Source: Aurantiacibacter marinus
GTDB taxonomy: Bacteria; Pseudomonadota; Alphaproteobacteria; Sphingomonadales; Sphingomonadaceae
Length of the DNA stretch: 64,000 nt
Direction: 5' to 3'
Assembly (NCBI RefSeq): GCF_001021555.1
Contig: NZ_LDCP01000002.1
Span: forward strand, 372,001 to 436,000
The translations under genes were made by a program, and so were the position numbers. The first letter of the stretch is position 1; each line of letters starts with the position of its first letter. The notes below the pieces were generated by a model. The model ran no database searches. It worked only from the letters and a program-made list of their open reading frames with translations, and was not told the origin of the DNA. Shown piece by piece: positions 36,351 through 46,522 of this stretch.

Positions 36351-36473
36351 GGCAGCGAGACTTGCCGAACCGAAGGTGAGACTAGTCGCAGCGGGGTGGG
36401 CCTGACGGCCCAGCGCTAGCAAGCAGCCTGAAACCAGCCGATGGATATCCTTTACAACTTGCGGATCGCGCCA

Positions 36474-37256
36474 TCAAAGGAAATGGGCTCTTGCATCAGT
36501 AATTTCCTCATAGAACTTGTCATGCTTGTCGCAAGCTGACCTCAGTTTTTCGGCAACAGACAGCATTATTTCACTGTCATCGCCAGGAATCCAAATACGC
36601 GCGATGTCTTGCGGATAAATCTCAACCTGACCACTTGAGCCATTTATGTATCGGTAAAGCTGGTCCCTCCCTTCGTCCGACATCAGATATGACGCACTAT
36701 ACCAAGAAAGAGTTGGATCTTTGAAGCGTATAATAGATACGTGGCCGTCGACCACAGCTGGAAATGACTGACCATACACCGCGACCCGACCTATAGTTCC
36801 ATCACCGGTAGAATTTATCAATAAGTCGCCTTTCTGCACACTCGATCTGTCCTTTACCTTTGTAAAAAAAGCGCGACTGACCGAGCGAGCGAGGTCGAAA
36901 TCAATAAAGCCATTTCGGATGCAGTTGGATTTCAGGGCACACACGTTTGCCTTTCCATCATCATCTCCATGGCGGGTCCCGTCGCGTTGCAGCATTCCCT
37001 CAAAAGACAAGCTTTCAAGATCGCAGTCGTCATCAGCATACTCCGGCTGACGACCACGAGAGATACTTCTGACCAAAAGGGTTTCATCGCCTAATTGGAA
37101 GGCATTCTTCTTACCTGCTGCATTCAAAACTGCATCGACATATTGATCCTGATGAAACTCCGGCTCCAAAATATGATTGTGCTGTTCTAGTCCCGTTGCC
37201 GCCTGAGGCAGGTCGAGCTTGGTTGCTTCGAATGGTCTGACAACTAATTGCGCCAT
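36474..37256 (-). CDS. Half-size restriction-modification specificity subunit (HsdS-like)
   Basis: Predicted 260-residue DNA-recognition subunit. It has one target-recognition domain (about residues 45-220), shown by the typical strand SSVQKGDLLINSTGDGTIGR (about 151-170), a VVDGHVSIIRF segment, and YINGSSGQVEIYPQDIARIWIP (C-terminal edge of a TRD). A helical conserved region follows (LSVAEKLRSACDKHDKFYEE). Normal HsdS proteins carry two TRDs in about 400 residues, so this is half a subunit that probably dimerises. The start ATG overlaps the stop of the nuclease-methylase gene (TAATG). Base composition is clearly lower in GC than the surrounding genes. Confidence 0.82.
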   Translation of the reverse strand: MAQLVVRPFEATKLDLPQAATGLEQHNHILEPEFHQDQYVDAVLNAAGKKNAFQLGDETLLVRSISRGRQPEYADDDCDLESLSFEGMLQRDGTRHGDDDGKANVCALKSNCIRNGFIDFDLARSVSRAFFTKVKDRSSVQKGDLLINSTGDGTIGRVAVYGQSFPAVVDGHVSIIRFKDPTLSWYSASYLMSDEGRDQLYRYINGSSGQVEIYPQDIARIWIPGDDSEIMLSVAEKLRSACDKHDKFYEEITDARAHFL

Positions 37257-39088
37257 TAGCTCCACTCCGAATTGGCTAAAATGAAATTTGCGATCTCGTC
37301 CAAGTCTGAGACCACCTCGCCGTCTTCATCACGAATAAGCTGCCCAGAGCGCGACTTACCCGGACGAGTGGTTTGACAGAAAACTATCTCAGGGTCGGCT
37401 TTGGCATCCTCAAGACTCTCAAGCGGCGACATTCGCTTTTGTAAAAACAGGACGCACGTCTTTGTATTTGTGAAAGGTTTGAACATTTCCCCACTGAGGC
37501 CAACCGATGCGATCACCCGAAAATCTCTAATTATGAACTTGCGTACATATTCATCTGTGTAATTTTTTAAGATACCGCGAGGCAGAACGATTGCCATTCG
37601 CCCCCCTGGCTTCAAAAACTCTGAGCATCTTTCTATAAATAGCCTGTCGCGAGAAACCTGCGAAAATCGCTTCTTCTTGCCACCTTGGATTTTAAATGCG
37701 ACTTCATACTTGGATAGGGTCTCTTCAGACTTGATGGCGCCGCCAAAGGGTGGGTTTGTAGCTATTACATCGAACTGCTTAAGCTCTGCGGAATTGCCGG
37801 ACCCCAAGGTGAATTTCGCTTTTGCACCTTTGTTCCAGTTGTTTTCGTTCAGGGCGTCAGCAACGGCGATGTTCGATCGTCCATCCCCCCAAATAAGCAT
37901 GTAAGCCTTCGCAACTTTTGCCAAAGTACGGTCATAATCCATGCCGTAAACGTATGTTGAAGCGTAGTCCTTCTGGTTTTCAAGAATCTCCGACAAATCA
38001 TCGCGATCATCAGCAATCTCTTTGAATACTTTATCCATTGCATAGATAAGAAAACCGCCACTACCGCATGCTGGATCAAATACAGACTCATCGTCTTTCG
38101 GATCAAGAACATCGATGCAAAGCTTCACGACGTGGCGAGGCGTGAAATATTGGCCCTTGTCGCCTTTCATGCCTGGATTGATCATCACCTCAAAAGCTGC
38201 GCCTAGCGCATCTGCATCTGAACGAAGCAGATAAGCCTTTTGGAGGGCCGATACGCAAAACGCGAGCGTCTCGTCGGTGAGCTCAATCTGATCAGAGTCA
38301 TCAAAGACGCCAGCCCAATGCTTCTTCGCAGCGTCAAACAAAGCGACGATGCGATTTCGTGCACCATCGGCTGACTCAAATGCGCCAACCCTAAACTGAC
38401 AGATCGATTGATCATTCTTTAGATTTCGTCGCTCATCGTATAACTTCGCGAAAACCAATTTGAATATCTCTGAAAACGGATCGGCACCCTCATGTGCCTT
38501 GATGTAATCTTCGCATTCTTTAAAAAGCGATATAAAATCTTTTACCGGATCGAGTTCCTTCCGAGTAATAGGTGAGTCAACGTCAGATAAATCTTCGTTC
38601 TTCCGCGGTATGTTTCGCAACTCACGCCACAAAGGCTGTTCTGACGCCCCTTTCGGTTCCACTCGCAAAAGGTACACATGCGGCGGAGCGCCATTGCTCC
38701 AAAGACCGATTCTGCAACCGGTGGCGTTCATGTAAACCTGCAGCTGGTCTACGCCGTCTTTTCTATTAGGCTTCTTGACCTCAATAAAAATTCGCGGCGT
38801 CTTTCGCTTGCTGTCCGAATAGACGACGATGTCCGCCGATTTTTTGGCTTCAGTCGATCCGACCTTGACCGAGACCTCTACGTCCAACTGTTCGAACGAG
38901 TATCCATATTCTGAGTGTAGACGGTAGAGCCACCATTGACGGACAAGCTCTTCCGGCTTCGAATCGATTTTGTATGCTCGTGTACGGATCGGGCAAAATA
39001 CATAACGATCAGCAGATACTTGAAAGACAGTTAGCTCGTCCGGTGCTGTATTCGGTTTTTGGCTCGAAATGACTGTTTTGTATTTCAT
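37256..39088 (-). CDS. Fused PD-(D/E)xK nuclease and N6-adenine DNA methyltransferase (BcgI-like RM subunit)
   Basis: Predicted 610-residue restriction-modification protein. Residues about 40-140 form an HsdR N-terminal-like nuclease domain with Glu47, Asp86 (ADIVVY) and FIEVKKP at 101-107 supplying the E-x-K. A helical linker follows (about 180-290). The methylase domain has YFTPRHVV (about 314-321), SAM motif I DPACGSGGF (338-346) and catalytic motif IV NPPF (445-448), the HsdM-type order. There is no helicase domain and no hsdR gene nearby, so cleavage would be ATP-translocation independent as in BcgI-type type IIB/IIG enzymes. The S subunit is coupled downstream. An AT-rich leader separates it from lepA. 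Lower GC marks horizontal acquisition. Confidence 0.88.
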   Translation of the reverse strand: MKYKTVISSQKPNTAPDELTVFQVSADRYVFCPIRTRAYKIDSKPEELVRQWWLYRLHSEYGYSFEQLDVEVSVKVGSTEAKKSADIVVYSDSKRKTPRIFIEVKKPNRKDGVDQLQVYMNATGCRIGLWSNGAPPHVYLLRVEPKGASEQPLWRELRNIPRKNEDLSDVDSPITRKELDPVKDFISLFKECEDYIKAHEGADPFSEIFKLVFAKLYDERRNLKNDQSICQFRVGAFESADGARNRIVALFDAAKKHWAGVFDDSDQIELTDETLAFCVSALQKAYLLRSDADALGAAFEVMINPGMKGDKGQYFTPRHVVKLCIDVLDPKDDESVFDPACGSGGFLIYAMDKVFKEIADDRDDLSEILENQKDYASTYVYGMDYDRTLAKVAKAYMLIWGDGRSNIAVADALNENNWNKGAKAKFTLGSGNSAELKQFDVIATNPPFGGAIKSEETLSKYEVAFKIQGGKKKRFSQVSRDRLFIERCSEFLKPGGRMAIVLPRGILKNYTDEYVRKFIIRDFRVIASVGLSGEMFKPFTNTKTCVLFLQKRMSPLESLEDAKADPEIVFCQTTRPGKSRSGQLIRDEDGEVVSDLDEIANFILANSEWS

Positions 39089-39156
39089 TCTGACCCTAGC
39101 TCATCTTATTTTTGTCGTTATTGAAAAATAGTATTTTGAGAATACGAAGGCTTCAC

Positions 39157-40974
39157 TCACTCCTCCCCCATCTTCAGAGCAGCGATAAACGCCTCCTGCG
39201 GAATGCTCACGTTGCCATATTCGCGCATCCGGGCTTTGCCCTTTTTCTGCTTTTCCAGCAGCTTTTTCTTGCGCGAAATGTCGCCGCCGTAACATTTGGC
39301 GGTCACGTCCTTGCGCATCGCGGCGATGGTTTCGCGGGCGATGATCTTGCCGCCGATCGCGGCCTGGACGGGGATTTTGAACAGGTGGCGGGGGATCAGG
39401 TCTTTCAGGCGTTCGCACATGCCGCGGCCGCGCTCTTCCGCCACGGCGCGGTGGACGATCAGGGACAGGGCGTCCACGGGTTCTGCATTCACCAGAATGT
39501 TCATTTTCACCAGATCGCCTTCGCGGTTGCCGATCTGTTCGTAATCGAAACTGGCATAGCCCCGGCTGATCGACTTTAGCCGGTCATAGAAGTCAAACAC
39601 CACTTCGTTGAGCGGCAGTTCATAGGTCACCTGCGCGCGCCCGCCGACATAGGTGAGGTTGGTCTGGATGCCGCGCCGGTCCTGGCACAGTTTCAGGATG
39701 GAGCCGAGGTATTCGTCCGGCGTGTAAATCACCGCCTTGATCCACGGTTCCTCGATCATCTCGATCCGGTTCACATCCGGCCAGTCGGCGGGATTGTGAA
39801 TGTCGATGACCTTTGCGTCCTCATTCTTGGTATGGCCGAGGTGTATGCGGTAAACCACTGAAGGCGCAGTGGTAATCAGGTCCAGATCATATTCGCGGCT
39901 GAGCCGTTCCTGAATGATTTCCAGATGCAGCAGGCCAAGGAAACCGGCGCGGAAGCCGAAGCCCAGCGCGGCGCTGCTTTCCATCTCGTAACTGAAGCTG
40001 GCGTCGTTCAGGCGCAGCTTGCCGATGCTTTCGCGCAGCTTTTCAAAGTCCGCCGCGTCCACCGGGAACAGCCCGCAGAACACCACCGGCTGCACTTCCT
40101 TATACCCGGTCAGCGCCTTTTCCGCGCCGCCCTTTACCGTGGTGATCGTGTCACCCACGCGGGCCTGTTCGACTTCCTTGATCTGCGCGGTGATGAAGCC
40201 GATTTCGCCGGGGCCGATTTCAGGCAATTCCATGCGTTTCGGGCCGAAGCAGCCCACGCGGTCCACCAGATGCTGCGTCCCGCCTTGCATGAAGCGGATG
40301 TCGAGGCCCTTTTTCAGCACGCCGTCGATCACGCGCACAAGGATGACCACGCCGAGGTACGGATCGTACCAGCTATCGACCAGCATGGCCTTCAGCGGGC
40401 CATCGCGTTCACCCTTGGGCGGCGGGATCTTGGCGACGACGGCTTCCAGCACGTCCTCGATCCCGATGCCCGATTTGGCGGAGGTGAGGACAGCTTCGGA
40501 TGCGTCGAGGCCGATGATGTCTTCGATCTCTGCCTTGACCTTTTCGGGCTCGGCAGCGGGCAGATCTATCTTGTTGATGACGCACACGATTTCGTGGTCA
40601 TGCTCGATGGACTGGTAAACATTCGCAAGGGTTTGCGCCTCCACCCCCTGCGCCGCGTCCACCACCAGCAACGCGCCTTCGCATGCCGCAAGGGAGCGGG
40701 AGACTTCATAGGCGAAGTCGACATGGCCGGGGGTGTCCATGAGGTTCAGCTCATAGGTTTCGCCGTCCTTGGCGGTGTAATTGAGGCGCACGGTCTGCGC
40801 CTTGATGGTGATGCCGCGCTCCTTCTCAATGTCCATGTTATCAAGGACTTGCTCGGACATCTCGCGCAGGGTGAGGCCCCCGCACTGTTGGATAAGGCGG
40901 TCGGCCAGCGTGGACTTGCCGTGGTCAATATGAGCAATAATGCTGAAATTGCGGATTTTTGAAAGGTCTGTCAT
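39157..40974 (-). CDS. lepA: Elongation factor 4 (LepA)
   Basis: Predicted 605-residue ribosome-binding GTPase that back-translocates or remodels stalled ribosomes. G1 is AHIDHGKST (about residues 14-22), G2 lies near [11 protein letters not shown]3 is DTPGHVDF (about 79-86), and G4 is NKIDLP (about 133-138). EF-G-like domains II, III and V follow, then the LepA-specific C-terminal domain, with [20 protein letters not shown] near the end. Length matches the family. It is followed on the same strand, after 68 AT-rich bases, by the restriction-modification cassette. Confidence 0.98.
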
Positions 40975-41259: not shown

Positions 41260-43497
41260 TTATCCAGCGCGCAGAGAGCCTGCAGATACGTCTACCTGCA
41301 TGAACTGCGGAGAGCCTACAGGAGCGCCGATATCTCTGGGAGGCGCATAATGGCCCGCCGGAAGCGCTCGCAATGGCATGCCTGCAGCCGCCAGCATATA
41401 GGGCGATACGCGGTGCCGTGTGCACAGACCGCCTGCCCCGTCGCTCACCAAAGGCGTTTCAAAGGAGAGGCCCTGCGTGGCATCTTGTGAGCGTCGCACG
41501 GACCCGACAATCAATTGCCCTTCTCCAAGATCAAGCAGCAATTGCGTACCGACCGGAACACCGGCCAGCCCTTCTATGCGCGCTCCGCTTCGTGACAGGT
41601 CACGCAATATCGCAGTGTAGTGATGGTCTTCGTGGATCACACCAACTCGGCGGAAAAGCATCTTGCGGTCAGCACGATGTTTCGCAGGTCCGAGCGGTTC
41701 GTAGCGCAACTCACCAGACTCCAGCTTTTTCATGACTGAGGAATGCGGCACGGCACGTGAAAAGATAAAGCCTTGAACAAAGTCTGCATTCAGACCGGCG
41801 ATGCACTGCAGTTCGTCCAGCGCTTCGACGCCTTCCGCCGTGGTTGCCATGTTCATTGCACTGGCAAGACTGATGATTGCCGTGATGATAGCAGCGTTCG
41901 AATTGTCCTTGTCGGTACATCCCCGAACGAAACTCTGGTCGATTTTAATCTTGTCGAATGGCGCTCGGCGCAAATAGGAAAGCGACGAATAGCCGGTGCC
42001 AAAATCGTCAAGCGCCAGCTTGATGCCAATCTTGCGGAGCGCCGCAAACATCTGATCGGTTGCGCCAACTTCACCCATGAAGACGCTTTCGGTAATCTCC
42101 AGCTCAAGCCTTCTGGCAGGAAGGCCTGATGCTGAAAGCGCGTTCGTTATGATGGTTGGTAAATTGTCACTGACGAATTGCTGGGCGGAAACATTTACCG
42201 CCACAGTCAGTTCGCCCGGCCAATTGGCTGCATCGGCGCATGCCTGACGCAGAGCCCATTCGCCCAGTTCATCTATCAGATTGCTGTCTTCGGCAATCGG
42301 GATGAATACACTCGGCATTATCGTTCCGTGCTCTGGATGATGCCAGCGCATAAGTGCCTCAAAACCGCGGACCATATGGGTCTTGGTATCAACTGTCGGC
42401 TGGTAATGCATTTCCAACTGACCCTGCGCCAGGGCGTCACGAAGATCTTCTTCGATTTCGCGTCGATCTTCGGCGGATTCTTTCAGGTCGTTGGAATAAA
42501 AGCGGAACTGTCCTCTTCCTCCGGCTTTGGCAGCATAAAGCGCCAGATCGGATGCCTTGATCAATTCGTTCGGTTCGATCCCGTCATAGGGCGCAATGGC
42601 GATGCCGATGGAGGTCCCGATAATAGCGCGGCTACCTTCAATCGAATATGGCTGCGAAATCATCTGGATGATGCGGTTAGCCAACTCTCCCAGCGTTCCG
42701 CGATCATCCATATCTGGAAGTATGATCTGGAACTCATCGCCGCCCAGCCTGCCGATTTCCGTTTCTGCAGGCAAAATCTGCTGCAAACGCTGTGAAACCT
42801 GTCGTAGCAATTCATCACCAGCAGGATGCCCCAGCGTATCGTTAACCTGTTTGAACCGGTCAAGATCCAGCATGAGCAACGCGCAAGAGCGTTTTTCCAG
42901 ACGATAGGCATTCAGTACTGCAGTCAGCCGCTTCGTCATGCGGTGCCGATTTGCGAGTCCTGTCAGCGAGTCATAGGCTGCTGCACGAGAGGAATCGCGA
43001 AGTTGCTGATACGTCGACGTGATATCTTTTGCGCTGCCGCGATATCCGAGGAAGTTTTGAGCTCTATCGAAATGCGGTTTGCCAGTCAGCGCCCACCATA
43101 CCTCATTTCGAGAAGTTCCACCGTCCCCCGCAGTAGCCAACCGGACAGGTTGTTCGCTGAATGTCGTCCGCGCGCTGAGCAGGAAAGACAGCGGCCTTGC
43201 ACGGATTTCTCTGTCCGTACCTTCTACAGTTTCGACAAGTTTTCCCAATTGCTCGCCAATAACAACGCGGCCTTCCTTGAACTGGTCGATTGCCGTTGGT
43301 GAAAGGTAGGTCAGCATGCCTTTGGCATCGGTGGACCAGAACCAGCCAATGCCAGTCGCTTCCAATGCTTCGAACATCGCCAGTCGCTGGCGATCATCCA
43401 GAATGGCAGCGCGGGCGACGACCGCTTCTGCGTCGGGCACGCGAACTTGGTCAGCTCGCTGGCCGCCAAGATTCCTGAACATCCCGCGTACGCCCAC
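41260..43497 (-). CDS. GGDEF-EAL-PilZ c-di-GMP signalling protein (soluble)
   Basis: Predicted 745-residue protein with no membrane segment. A PAS-like domain (about residues 35-165, with TGIGWFWSTDAKGMLTYLSP) precedes a GGDEF domain (about 170-330) with an intact GRLGGDEFQI, then an EAL domain (about 345-590) with GFEALMRWHHPEHG, a DDFGTGYSSLSYL stretch, and the conserved Lys/Gln segment. A PilZ-like domain follows (about 615-700) with LRDLSRSGARIEG. Both catalytic signatures look intact, so it could make or degrade c-di-GMP; net activity is unpredictable. It is a paralogue of the next gene upstream, with the same domain order. Confidence 0.93.
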   Translation of the reverse strand: MGVRGMFRNLGGQRADQVRVPDAEAVVARAAILDDRQRLAMFEALEATGIGWFWSTDAKGMLTYLSPTAIDQFKEGRVVIGEQLGKLVETVEGTDREIRARPLSFLLSARTTFSEQPVRLATAGDGGTSRNEVWWALTGKPHFDRAQNFLGYRGSAKDITSTYQQLRDSSRAAAYDSLTGLANRHRMTKRLTAVLNAYRLEKRSCALLMLDLDRFKQVNDTLGHPAGDELLRQVSQRLQQILPAETEIGRLGGDEFQIILPDMDDRGTLGELANRIIQMISQPYSIEGSRAIIGTSIGIAIAPYDGIEPNELIKASDLALYAAKAGGRGQFRFYSNDLKESAEDRREIEEDLRDALAQGQLEMHYQPTVDTKTHMVRGFEALMRWHHPEHGTIMPSVFIPIAEDSNLIDELGEWALRQACADAANWPGELTVAVNVSAQQFVSDNLPTIITNALSASGLPARRLELEITESVFMGEVGATDQMFAALRKIGIKLALDDFGTGYSSLSYLRRAPFDKIKIDQSFVRGCTDKDNSNAAIITAIISLASAMNMATTAEGVEALDELQCIAGLNADFVQGFIFSRAVPHSSVMKKLESGELRYEPLGPAKHRADRKMLFRRVGVIHEDHHYTAILRDLSRSGARIEGLAGVPVGTQLLLDLGEGQLIVGSVRRSQDATQGLSFETPLVSDGAGGLCTRHRVSPYMLAAAGMPLRALPAGHYAPPRDIGAPVGSPQFMQVDVSAGSLRAG

Positions 43498-43619
43498 CTT
43501 GTCTATTCTCCAAAATTCACGCCGCCGGATTCTCGAAGGCTTTACGCGCTGTCAGCATTACTCGCGCGACCTTACCAATTAACTAAGTATGGTAGCGAAG
43601 TTCGGTGTTCCTATGCACA

Positions 43620-46370
43620 CTATCCAGCCTTGCGCATTTCCCCTGCGACGATCTGCTTTGGTGGAGGCCCCTGAATGGCTGTAATCTGGCCTGTGCCATC
43701 GCGCTGTAGAGGGTTGGCAAATTCCACGCCCATCCGGTCTTGCACGCTCCAACGGGCAATGCAGGATACAACTTGGCTGGTCGAAATGTGCACGTGGAAT
43801 GTCGTGCCGACCGGCACATTCCACAAGCCTTCGACCATGGCCCCTGTGACCGATATGTTCCGGATTGTGCCGTTGTACAGATGACCATCATGATCCAGCA
43901 CCACTTTGCGCAGCATTTTCTGACGTGTGGCGCGGCTGGATTTGGGGCCCTCCGCAACGGTTCCCAATCCGCCAGCCAAGCGCTCCAAAACTTGTTCAAG
44001 CGGCTGGGAGCGATCAAAGATATAGCCCTGCACATGGCTGCAACCATGACGCCGGATGAGCTCCAGTTCATCATGCGTTTCTACGCCCTCGGCTGTGGTA
44101 TCCATTCCAAGCGACTGCGCGAGGCTGGTTATCGAGGTAATAATTGCGCCGTTCCGGCTGCCCTTTTCGGTCATACCGCGTACAAAGCTCTGATCGATCT
44201 TGATCTTGTCGAACGGAGCTTTCTTCAAATAGCCGAGTGAGGAATACCCGGTGCCAAAATCGTCCAGTGCCAGCCGCACACCAATCCGCTTGAGCGCAGC
44301 GAACATCTCATCGTTGCCATGATCATCACCCAGGAAAATGCTTTCGGTGATTTCCAATTCCAATCGCGAGGCGCGAACGTCGGCATGTGCGATCGCGTTT
44401 TTCACAATGTTCGGAAAATCCACGTTCGAAAACTGGATCGGCGAAACATTGACGGCCACGCATACTTCGTCTGGCCAAAGCGCCAGATCCTTGCATGCCT
44501 GGCGCAAGGCCCATTCACCGAGCGAATTGATGATGCCACTATCTTCCGCGATGCCGATGAAACGCGTGGGCGAAATCCATCCTTTGACAGGATGATTCCA
44601 GCGAAGCAGCGCTTCAAATCCTGAAATCCGGTCTGTCGCCATCGAAACGATGGGTTGGTAGTGAAGTTCCATTTCTCCCTTGACGACCGCATCGCGCAAA
44701 TCTTCTTCCAGCTGAGAGCGCGCTTCCGCCTCTGCATGCAAATCTTCAGCGTAGAAATGGTATCGTCCGCGCCCACCGTCCTTGGCTGCATACAGCGCCA
44801 GGTCAGCGTTGCGGATCAGTTCCTCGCTGTTGTCGCCATGCTCGGGCGATACCGCGATACCGATCGACAAGCCGATTACGACCCGCTGCCCATCGATGGA
44901 ATAGGGCTGTGAAATAGAATGGATGATTTCCTTGCTCAGATTGGCCAGAACATTCCTTTCCACACGGCTCGGGATGATGACCTTGAATTCATCGCCGCCA
45001 AGACGGCCAACCTGCCCCAGCTTGCCTACGGCCCGTTCAAGCCGCTGCGAGACCTGCTTTAGCAGGGCGTCACCAGCTGGATGGCCCATCGTATCATTCA
45101 CCTGCTTGAACCGGTCGAGATCGAGCAGCAAGATCGCGCAGTGGCGATTGGCTTCGGATTGCGCACCCAGAATCTTTTCAAGGCTCTGCGACATCTGGAA
45201 CCGGTTTGCGAGCCCGGTGAGAGCATCATACCGCGCCAATCGCGTCGCCTGCTCCTGACTGCGCTTGCGCTCTGTCAGATCGGTGCCAGATCCGCGAAAA
45301 CCGACGAAGTTGTCAAATTGGTCATATATCGGCCGACCCGAGACAGACCACCAGCGCTCTTCCTTTTCGATGGCTGCGCGGACCGGCAACTCGCTGAATG
45401 CAGAACGCGCCGACAGGTGGAATATCAGTGTGCGCTCGCCCTCGTCGCCTGTATCTTCCAGGTCAAACAGGCGCGTGAATGACTGGCCGATCAAACGATC
45501 GGGGTTCCGTCTGAGCGCTTTGGCCACCGGTGGCGAGATATAGGTCAACAAGGATCGGCGATCAGTCTCCCAGAACCAGCCTTGCCCCGTTTCTTCGTAA
45601 TCGGAAAGAATATCACGGGCGCGGGTTTGCACCCTTTCCTGTGTTTCCAGCCGTTCATATTCGGATTTCTGTTCGAGCAATTGTTCGCGCGTGACAAGCA
45701 CTGCCACAGTAAGGCCGACAAACAACCCGAGGATACCAGCGAGCGATGCGTGAACCATCACGGCGGCTGACCATATCGCAAACTGCGCTGCGAAAATCGC
45801 CCCTGGCTGGCGCCTGAGATAGGCCGTCGCAATACAGGAAACACACAATATGCCAGCCATTGCGACATCCCAGCGAATGCCCTCGTTGCTTGCCCAGACT
45901 GTAAGGCCGAAGCCCATCATGAACAAAGGCAGCACCACAACTGCAACAAGCCCGATAGCCTTTGCCAAATTGCTGCGTGGCATCACGAAATCATGAACCC
46001 GTGCAATCGGCAATGTAAACAGCACTGCAAAGGCCAGAACAAGCCAAGTGCCTGGACGTGGCAAAGTAGTGGACGCGATAGTACAAACCGCGATTGTCAT
46101 TATGCAAGCCAGGATCAGATAGGTCCATTTGCGCGGAAACCACTGTTCATCCAGACCCGCGACCGGCGGAGAATTCACGCTCCGGTCAAACTTCGGTTCG
46201 CGGCGCGTACCTTTACGCCTATCCTTGGAAGCTTCAGCACCTTCCAATACCGGGTGCTGGTCCGCCCCCTCATCGTTAGCAAATGCGCGCATAGCAGCAC
46301 GCTTTCCATCGCGGTCTTGCGCGGGAAAGGGCGCCGGGGCCTTGCTGACCTTGCGGATCGCATCTTGCAT
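43620..46370 (-). CDS. Membrane-bound GGDEF-EAL-PilZ c-di-GMP signalling protein
   Basis: Predicted 916-residue inner-membrane protein. The ATG at 46370 has AGGGA upstream and is preferred over the TTG at 46439. About six hydrophobic helices span residues 85-245 and form a MASE-like sensor region. A PAS domain follows (about 265-385), with GQGWFWETDRRSLLTYISPP, then GGDEF (about 395-555) with GRLGGDEFKV, EAL (about 565-815) with GFEALLRWNHPVKG and DDFGTGYSSLGYL, and a PilZ domain (about 825-905) with IRNISVTGAMVEG. The PAS-to-PilZ part is clearly paralogous to the downstream gene. Catalytic motifs look intact. Confidence 0.93.
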   Translation of the reverse strand: MQDAIRKVSKAPAPFPAQDRDGKRAAMRAFANDEGADQHPVLEGAEASKDRRKGTRREPKFDRSVNSPPVAGLDEQWFPRKWTYLILACIMTIAVCTIASTTLPRPGTWLVLAFAVLFTLPIARVHDFVMPRSNLAKAIGLVAVVVLPLFMMGFGLTVWASNEGIRWDVAMAGILCVSCIATAYLRRQPGAIFAAQFAIWSAAVMVHASLAGILGLFVGLTVAVLVTREQLLEQKSEYERLETQERVQTRARDILSDYEETGQGWFWETDRRSLLTYISPPVAKALRRNPDRLIGQSFTRLFDLEDTGDEGERTLIFHLSARSAFSELPVRAAIEKEERWWSVSGRPIYDQFDNFVGFRGSGTDLTERKRSQEQATRLARYDALTGLANRFQMSQSLEKILGAQSEANRHCAILLLDLDRFKQVNDTMGHPAGDALLKQVSQRLERAVGKLGQVGRLGGDEFKVIIPSRVERNVLANLSKEIIHSISQPYSIDGQRVVIGLSIGIAVSPEHGDNSEELIRNADLALYAAKDGGRGRYHFYAEDLHAEAEARSQLEEDLRDAVVKGEMELHYQPIVSMATDRISGFEALLRWNHPVKGWISPTRFIGIAEDSGIINSLGEWALRQACKDLALWPDEVCVAVNVSPIQFSNVDFPNIVKNAIAHADVRASRLELEITESIFLGDDHGNDEMFAALKRIGVRLALDDFGTGYSSLGYLKKAPFDKIKIDQSFVRGMTEKGSRNGAIITSITSLAQSLGMDTTAEGVETHDELELIRRHGCSHVQGYIFDRSQPLEQVLERLAGGLGTVAEGPKSSRATRQKMLRKVVLDHDGHLYNGTIRNISVTGAMVEGLWNVPVGTTFHVHISTSQVVSCIARWSVQDRMGVEFANPLQRDGTGQITAIQGPPPKQIVAGEMRKAG

Positions 46371-46522
46371 GGGTTTCCCTTGCCTCAAGGCGTTTGAAGA
46401 ACGGTTAACCGCCAGCGAAATTTTGTTATGGACAGTCAACTGGGTAGAGGCACCTACGCTGCATTGCCGGGACGTGAAAAAGGGTTAAGAAAAGCGCGTC
46501 AGGGCAGCGTTGGGGAATAAAC

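Follow-up and report, generated by a model that had tools for sequence, protein, structure and literature searches.

Type IIB restriction–modification (R-M) enzymes with palindromic targets include BplI, AlfI and FalI. The group has been described as Type I systems that lack a motor (PMC6158711; see also PMC3874165). The forms set out in Table 4 of Loenen et al. are 2R~M + S1~S2, 2R~M~[TRD] and R~M~S~S, and that table has no row in which R~M is joined by a separate subunit with a single target-recognition domain (TRD) (PMC3874165). The paper on BsaXI surveys 16 Type IIB systems of known sequence, which fall into RM + S and RMS groups, and all but one of the S models in its survey are incomplete or askew TRD1-CR1-TRD2-CR2 folds (PMC11997821); half-size S subunits may be present among these 16 systems. 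BsaXI itself (PDB 8w0p) is described as an (RM)2S assembly with an asymmetric site, in which the RM chain has 916 aa, with knob and paddle elements, and the S subunit has 476 aa and two TRDs. BplI is reported to consist of two polypeptides at a subunit ratio of A1:B1, with the palindromic bipartite target GAG-N5-CTC (PMC1892151).

Half-size S subunits are known from other settings. The usual assembly of S subunits with this fold is an antiparallel pair held by the helices, and dimers of half-S act on palindromes in truncated EcoR124I and EcoDXXI and in the natural NgoAV (PMC3874165). M.AhdI, of the 'Type 1 1/2' (IIH) organisation, has a separate single-TRD S and a stoichiometry of 2M+2S (PMC3874165). 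Bower et al. engineered a half-HsdS that reads ACC-N5-GGT and, separately, fused the HsdR nuclease domain to HsdM, a fusion that methylated without cleaving (PMC6158711). HaeIV, with a single TRD per chain and a symmetric bipartite site, is described as carrying all three functions in one polypeptide. The literature searched, with REBASE and most subscription papers outside its scope, describes no pair of an RM chain and a half-S from sequence.

The stretch of Aurantiacibacter marinus DNA analysed here (64,000 nucleotides, hereafter the window) carries such a pair on its reverse strand. The first gene (37256..39088, −) encodes an RM subunit of 610 aa, in which a PD-(D/E)xK nuclease at the N-terminus is fused to an N6-adenine methyltransferase (NPPF). 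The second (36474..37256, −) encodes a half-size S subunit of 260 aa, made up of one TRD and one long C-terminal helix (residues 228–259). The original prediction had placed nuclease and methylase in one chain and had seen no helicase in the pair. Both points are borne out, as the 610-aa protein matches both HSDR_N_2 and N6_Mtase in Pfam, its matches include no helicase family, and the slot that holds the pair contains no further gene. The proposed coupling by TAATG, in which the S start overlaps the RM stop, is also present, and both genes are indeed AT-richer than their surroundings (GC 47.4% and 47.6%, vs 59.5% for lepA and 58.3% for the window).

With Type IIB (BcgI-like) systems the pair shares the RM fusion chain, the absence of a translocase or helicase and an HsdS-like specificity subunit. 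It departs from the BcgI sub-form (2RM:1S), whose S has two TRDs, since all five close S proteins have one, and it has no motor HsdR beside it, as a Type I system has beside hsdM and hsdS. The parts are of known kinds; their arrangement is uncommon among the relatives examined.

The methylase part is an N6_Mtase domain (residues 291–554; 37427..38218, −; Pfam E 6.9e-41), with motif I DPACGSGGF and motif IV NPPF, so that the HsdM-type motifs DPACGSGG and NPPF lie where they had been predicted. The HSDR_N_2, or PD-(D/E)xK, nuclease domain (residues 45–147; 38648..38956, −) is identified from its Pfam match (E 6.6e-21), conservation and predicted secondary structure. In the AlphaFold model of the RM chain (mean pLDDT 85.6, pTM 0.74), its core runs through helix 45–59, strands 68–75, 82–90 and 98–104, helix 109–123 and strand 127–131, and such a succession is the usual order of a PD-(D/E)xK core. 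The four residues named earlier (E47, D86, E103 and K105) are all present in the 610-aa frame. D86 lies on strand 2 and E103-x-K105 at the end of strand 3, with Q115 and Y119 on the next helix, and E47 is conserved, yet is placed on the first helix. Strand 1 of the predicted core contributes a further conserved residue, E71, beyond those named earlier.

The claimed kinship to BcgI-type (Type IIB) enzymes is supported by a nearly end-to-end alignment of the RM chain with RM.BsaXI, a Type IIB enzyme: 9–589 of the 634 positions of the A4 profile are aligned (E 1.1e-84), and a Foldseek search with the RM model returns BsaXI chains as its top three matches. D86 and E103-x-K105 align on BsaXI D90 and E105-x-K107. 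BsaXI E73 sits in a two-residue insertion beside E71 in the profile alignment, and E71 is probably its counterpart. Mutation of E73, D90, E105 or K107 abolishes cleavage by BsaXI (PMC11997821). The window pair and BsaXI thus have in common a one-chain nuclease–methylase, the D/ExK residues and a separate S; the shorter RM chain and the half-size S set the window pair apart.

That the 260-aa S carries a single TRD, as the original prediction held, is confirmed by the PADLOC Specificity_I models, which match one repeat, and by the AlphaFold model. No meaningful match to the S protein was found in Pfam. The monomer model (pLDDT 85.1, pTM 0.84) has one TRD followed by helix 228–259, the only long helix in the chain, and Foldseek places the PacII S chains first, then Esub1 and S.BsaXI. 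TRDs were counted with the A5 profile, built from 20 S halves or short S proteins, with some of the full-size S proteins tested among its sources. Each of the five close S proteins gives a single A5 match. Of the 48 complete full-size S proteins in wider relatives, 46 match in both halves and one has no match; both halves are also matched in six of seven S frames cut by a contig end. A5 replaced a weak profile of the five close S proteins, which had matched 29 of 54 S frames of at least 400 aa, 23 of them twice. Against the PDB, A5 matched ten distinct sequences, four of them twice (1yf2, 2y7c, 5ybb and 3okg) and six once, S.BsaXI being among the six.

Among the five close S proteins, the TRD is 60–68% identical and the terminal part only 17–36%, a difference from which a shared target among close members is probable. 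A recent truncation of S in the window clade is ruled out, as S is kept at 258–269 aa in all five loci. Outside that clade, loci L034 and L098 have short S frames (237 and 244 aa) that may be split or truncated full S genes; L035, the sister of L034, has an S of 481 aa.

Close relatives, at 60–72% identity, occur at L003 (Devosia MAG), L004 (Comamonas MAG), L027 (genome G495), L028 (genome G503) and L044, whose contig ends before any S could be read. L027 belongs to the same class as the window, and L028 to another class of the same phylum. Wherever both genes are readable (five loci, window included), the same pair is found, with RM 65–72% and S 53–60% identical across at least two bacterial classes. 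One TRD type would then have been kept while moving between these classes, which again points, on the sequences compared, to probably one target common to the five close members.

At this closeness the pair is rare. A close RM is found in its own genome only among 296 genomes of its order and 385 of its class, in its own and two others in a phylum set of 398, and in no further genome among 299 from the order of G503 and 292 from the order of G495; the order, class and phylum sets overlap. A scan of viral_contigs with the single RM protein found no relative, and scans with alignments yielded L044 in one case and, in another, the best 80 of 269 places, which again included L044.

A tree built from 101 RM rows (97 different; a quick IQ-TREE run with SH-aLRT only) places the six close members in one clade (SH-aLRT 100). 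The sister of this clade has 25 rows, of which 20 have a full-size S (SH-aLRT 99). Among the next three genes downstream of 96 complete RM frames, a complete full S follows 47, a short S seven, a contig-cut S five and no S 37; five of the seven short ones are the close loci, and 11 of 107 RM rows were left out of this count as partial. Two viral contigs, L089:3127-5803 and L115:2989-5764, have an S of 278 and 312 aa, respectively, with a single TRD match, directly upstream of RM and overlapping it. Both are among the 37 without a downstream S, their RM proteins have E-D-E-K intact, and they fall in a clade other than the window's. This lineage of reverse gene order suggests more than one origin of the half-S form. 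Eleven wider-relative loci (L012:8482-9297, L032, L033, L035, L045, L049, L050, L052, L059, L063 and L085) have a third gene, at most ~270 aa long; it gave no match in Pfam (two scanned) or PADLOC (one scanned) and is absent from the close loci.

We consider it likely that the pair is an autonomous, ATP-independent Type IIB-like R-M system, in which 2 RM + 2 half-S act on an interrupted palindrome. This agrees with one of the options of the original prediction, a homodimer on a symmetrical bipartite site, and BplI, M.AhdI and the engineered half-HsdS are precedents for such an arrangement. Two half-S would pair through their long C-terminal helices and so put two identical TRDs in opposite orientation on the interrupted palindrome. 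Each half-S would bind one RM chain, giving 2 RM + 2 half-S, and each RM would put one N6-methyl group on an adenine of its half-site. On sites unmodified in both strands, the PD-(D/E)xK domains would cleave on either side, a short and constant distance away, a reaction that should need Mg2+, probably SAM and no ATP. Dimerisation, stoichiometry, the palindromic target, two-sided cleavage and the activity itself are the parts of this scheme that we infer.

One rival reading, rather unlikely, is that the HSDR_N domain has stopped cutting and that the pair acts as an N6-adenine methylase, solitary or regulatory, with a half-S subunit. The original prediction expected the ExK residues to be kept in homologues. 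They are largely kept: E-D-E-K stands at positions 47, 86, 103 and 105 in 80 of 107 homologue frames, in an alignment that includes near-copies and some fragments, and in five of six close members. The expectation fails in the sixth, L003, where codon 105 is AGA instead of AAG (K105R), so that at least one close member may fail to cut. E-D-E-K was not seen in the other 27 aligned frames, some of them fragments, and E103 is absent from all 12 rows of a clade that includes a MADS-like cluster (L024, L025, L036, L073, L075-L077, L080, L090, L091 and L093). The HSDR_N domain can therefore persist without an active site. Together with the artificial nuclease–HsdM fusions that methylated and did not cut (PMC6158711), L003 and the E103-less clade count against an active nuclease. 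On the other side, the five close members all share E47, E71, D86, E103, Q115 and Y119, and four of them keep K105. The nuclease region is 70–81% identical among them, vs 67–78% for the methylase. The wider 36-sequence modelling set shows no substitution at E46, E47, D86, E103, Q115 or Y119, and has E71 and K105 in at least 90% of its sequences. The pair also sits in a slot used by defence systems, described below, which argues against a methylase that merely marks DNA.

An autonomous restriction enzyme, as preferred here, could still be assembled in another ratio, for example from 1 RM + 1 S acting in a Type IIS-like manner, with the palindrome bound in either orientation. Marshall et al. raise such action for BplI from its 1:1 ratio and single-site behaviour (PMC1892151). 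For the window pair it seems very improbable, given that S subunits of such fold normally pair antiparallel through helices (PMC3874165) and that helix 228–259 is the sole long helix in the modelled S chain.

It is just as hard to see the pair as the M and S genes of a Type I system with its HsdR encoded elsewhere, a reading to which we give very little credence. The methylase part is HsdM-like, and the best PADLOC model for both the window protein and that of L033 is named Type I methyltransferase. The original prediction had singled out a helicase-bearing hsdR elsewhere in the genome as the finding that would speak against it, and the search came out in favour of autonomy. The genome has one SWI2_SNF2 match and one HSDR_N match, both in the same frame of a separate Type I operon on contig 1, where this one HsdR found (1035 codons) adjoins an M of 723 aa and an S of 425 aa that belong to it. 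Ten neighbours of close members (four at L027, three at L028, two at L003 and one in the window) were scanned with Pfam and include no helicase and no HsdR, and one further scanned neighbour, the AAA_13 protein of L004, is not a helicase. A phmmer search with the genome's HsdR recovered only itself among 3221 frames of the loci, an insensitive result, as the query was a single sequence. A regular expression for SF2 helicase motifs, run on 210 frames, missed the genome's own HsdR, its positive control, and its result was left unused. The AAA_13 ATPase of L004 (L004:10973-13579; PADLOC PDC-S06) lies downstream of the pair and is presumably reminiscent of the anticodon-nuclease guards that adjoin R-M systems.

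A remnant of a MADS (methylation-associated defence) cluster that keeps MAD2 and part of MAD5 is extremely improbable: NCBIfam MAD2 is the best family for RM (E 7e-109, across both domains, residues 27–598), MAD5 weakly matches S (E 2e-6) and the L004 AAA protein, which the mad-gene scan of other close members' neighbours covered, weakly matches mad3 (5.5e-14, far behind PDC-S06 at 5e-192), but MADS is a multi-gene system, the MAD2 score of 364.9 bits lies below the cut-off of 720, the same model matches all 19 diverse relatives in A1, the window slot holds no further gene, mad or other, and the MADS-like cluster at L036 (mad2, mad3, mad5 and mad6 matches; S of 473 aa) belongs to another clade and lacks both E103 and K105. 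In its 12-row clade, the nuclease looks as if it were dispensable.

Read as the two-plus-two enzyme, the pair has partial likenesses among known systems. In AhdI, a Type II system, the M chain does not cut; cleavage is left to a separate endonuclease. The window pair resembles M.AhdI and IIH systems in its separate single-TRD S, and differs in that its methylase chain has a fused nuclease. It resembles HaeIV in bringing nuclease and methylase together, with one TRD per chain, and differs in giving the S its own gene. BplI resembles the proposed enzyme in its subunit ratio and its type of target, a comparison by description only; its B subunit may or may not be a half-S.

On balance, it is reasonably probable that a natural '2 R~M + 2 [single TRD]' enzyme exists here, with the half-S as its own gene and one TRD type kept across at least two classes. 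Palindromic Type IIB enzymes and half-S methylases are already known, and the novelty of the pair is thus one of arrangement and not of class. If this is true, the pair is a nuclease-bearing mirror of the M.AhdI organisation and a natural counterpart of two separate constructs of Bower et al., the nuclease–HsdM fusion and the half-HsdS (PMC6158711). It would be a natural intermediate of ~2.6 kb between Type I and Type IIG, where the fusions of Bower et al. never gained cleavage. Relatives with intact and with lost nuclease could be compared to ask when a nuclease–methylase fusion becomes a working restriction enzyme. The pair also lets one ask whether Type IIB enzymes can work with two identical half-S, and could add a compact palindrome-reading enzyme to that group.

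The pair fills a variable slot of 2.7 kb (36418..39156), bordered by conserved flanking DNA on one side and, on the other, by the 3' end of lepA (EF4; 39157..40974, −), the conserved neighbour. Only RM and S lie inside, and the left border is drawn from a single match of 89 bp (84%) to a single genome (L142). Of 15 same-genus genomes, 14 yielded lepA; six regions downstream of it were fetched and five inspected. There, the slot holds a Type II R-M pair (L142), SIR2 + HerA (L141), RT-UG5-nitrilase (L140), an unassigned protein of 530 aa with a glycosyltransferase (L139) and genes among which one is, by eye, TonB-receptor-like (L138). A named defence system thus occupies it in three of the five other species inspected, or in four of six when the window's pair is counted, and in this genus the slot next to lepA has the look of a defence hotspot. 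A second copy of the lepA 3' end is present in two of these regions (207 bp in L142, 56 bp in L140), which hints at site-specific insertion; no such repeat was found when the other end of the window cassette was searched.

The neighbourhoods of the close relatives differ. In the Devosia MAG (L003:8001-13741), the pair lies 1.3 kb from the lepA 3' end, in an orientation opposite to lepA. A tyrosine integrase (L027:2141-3298) is encoded ~3.7 kb upstream of the pair in G495, the pair of L028 follows a glmS-like gene, and that of L004 lies downstream of a gene that reads, by eye, like guaA. In the window itself, two frames that look like GGDEF-EAL proteins by eye (41260-46439) lie upstream of lepA on the same strand.
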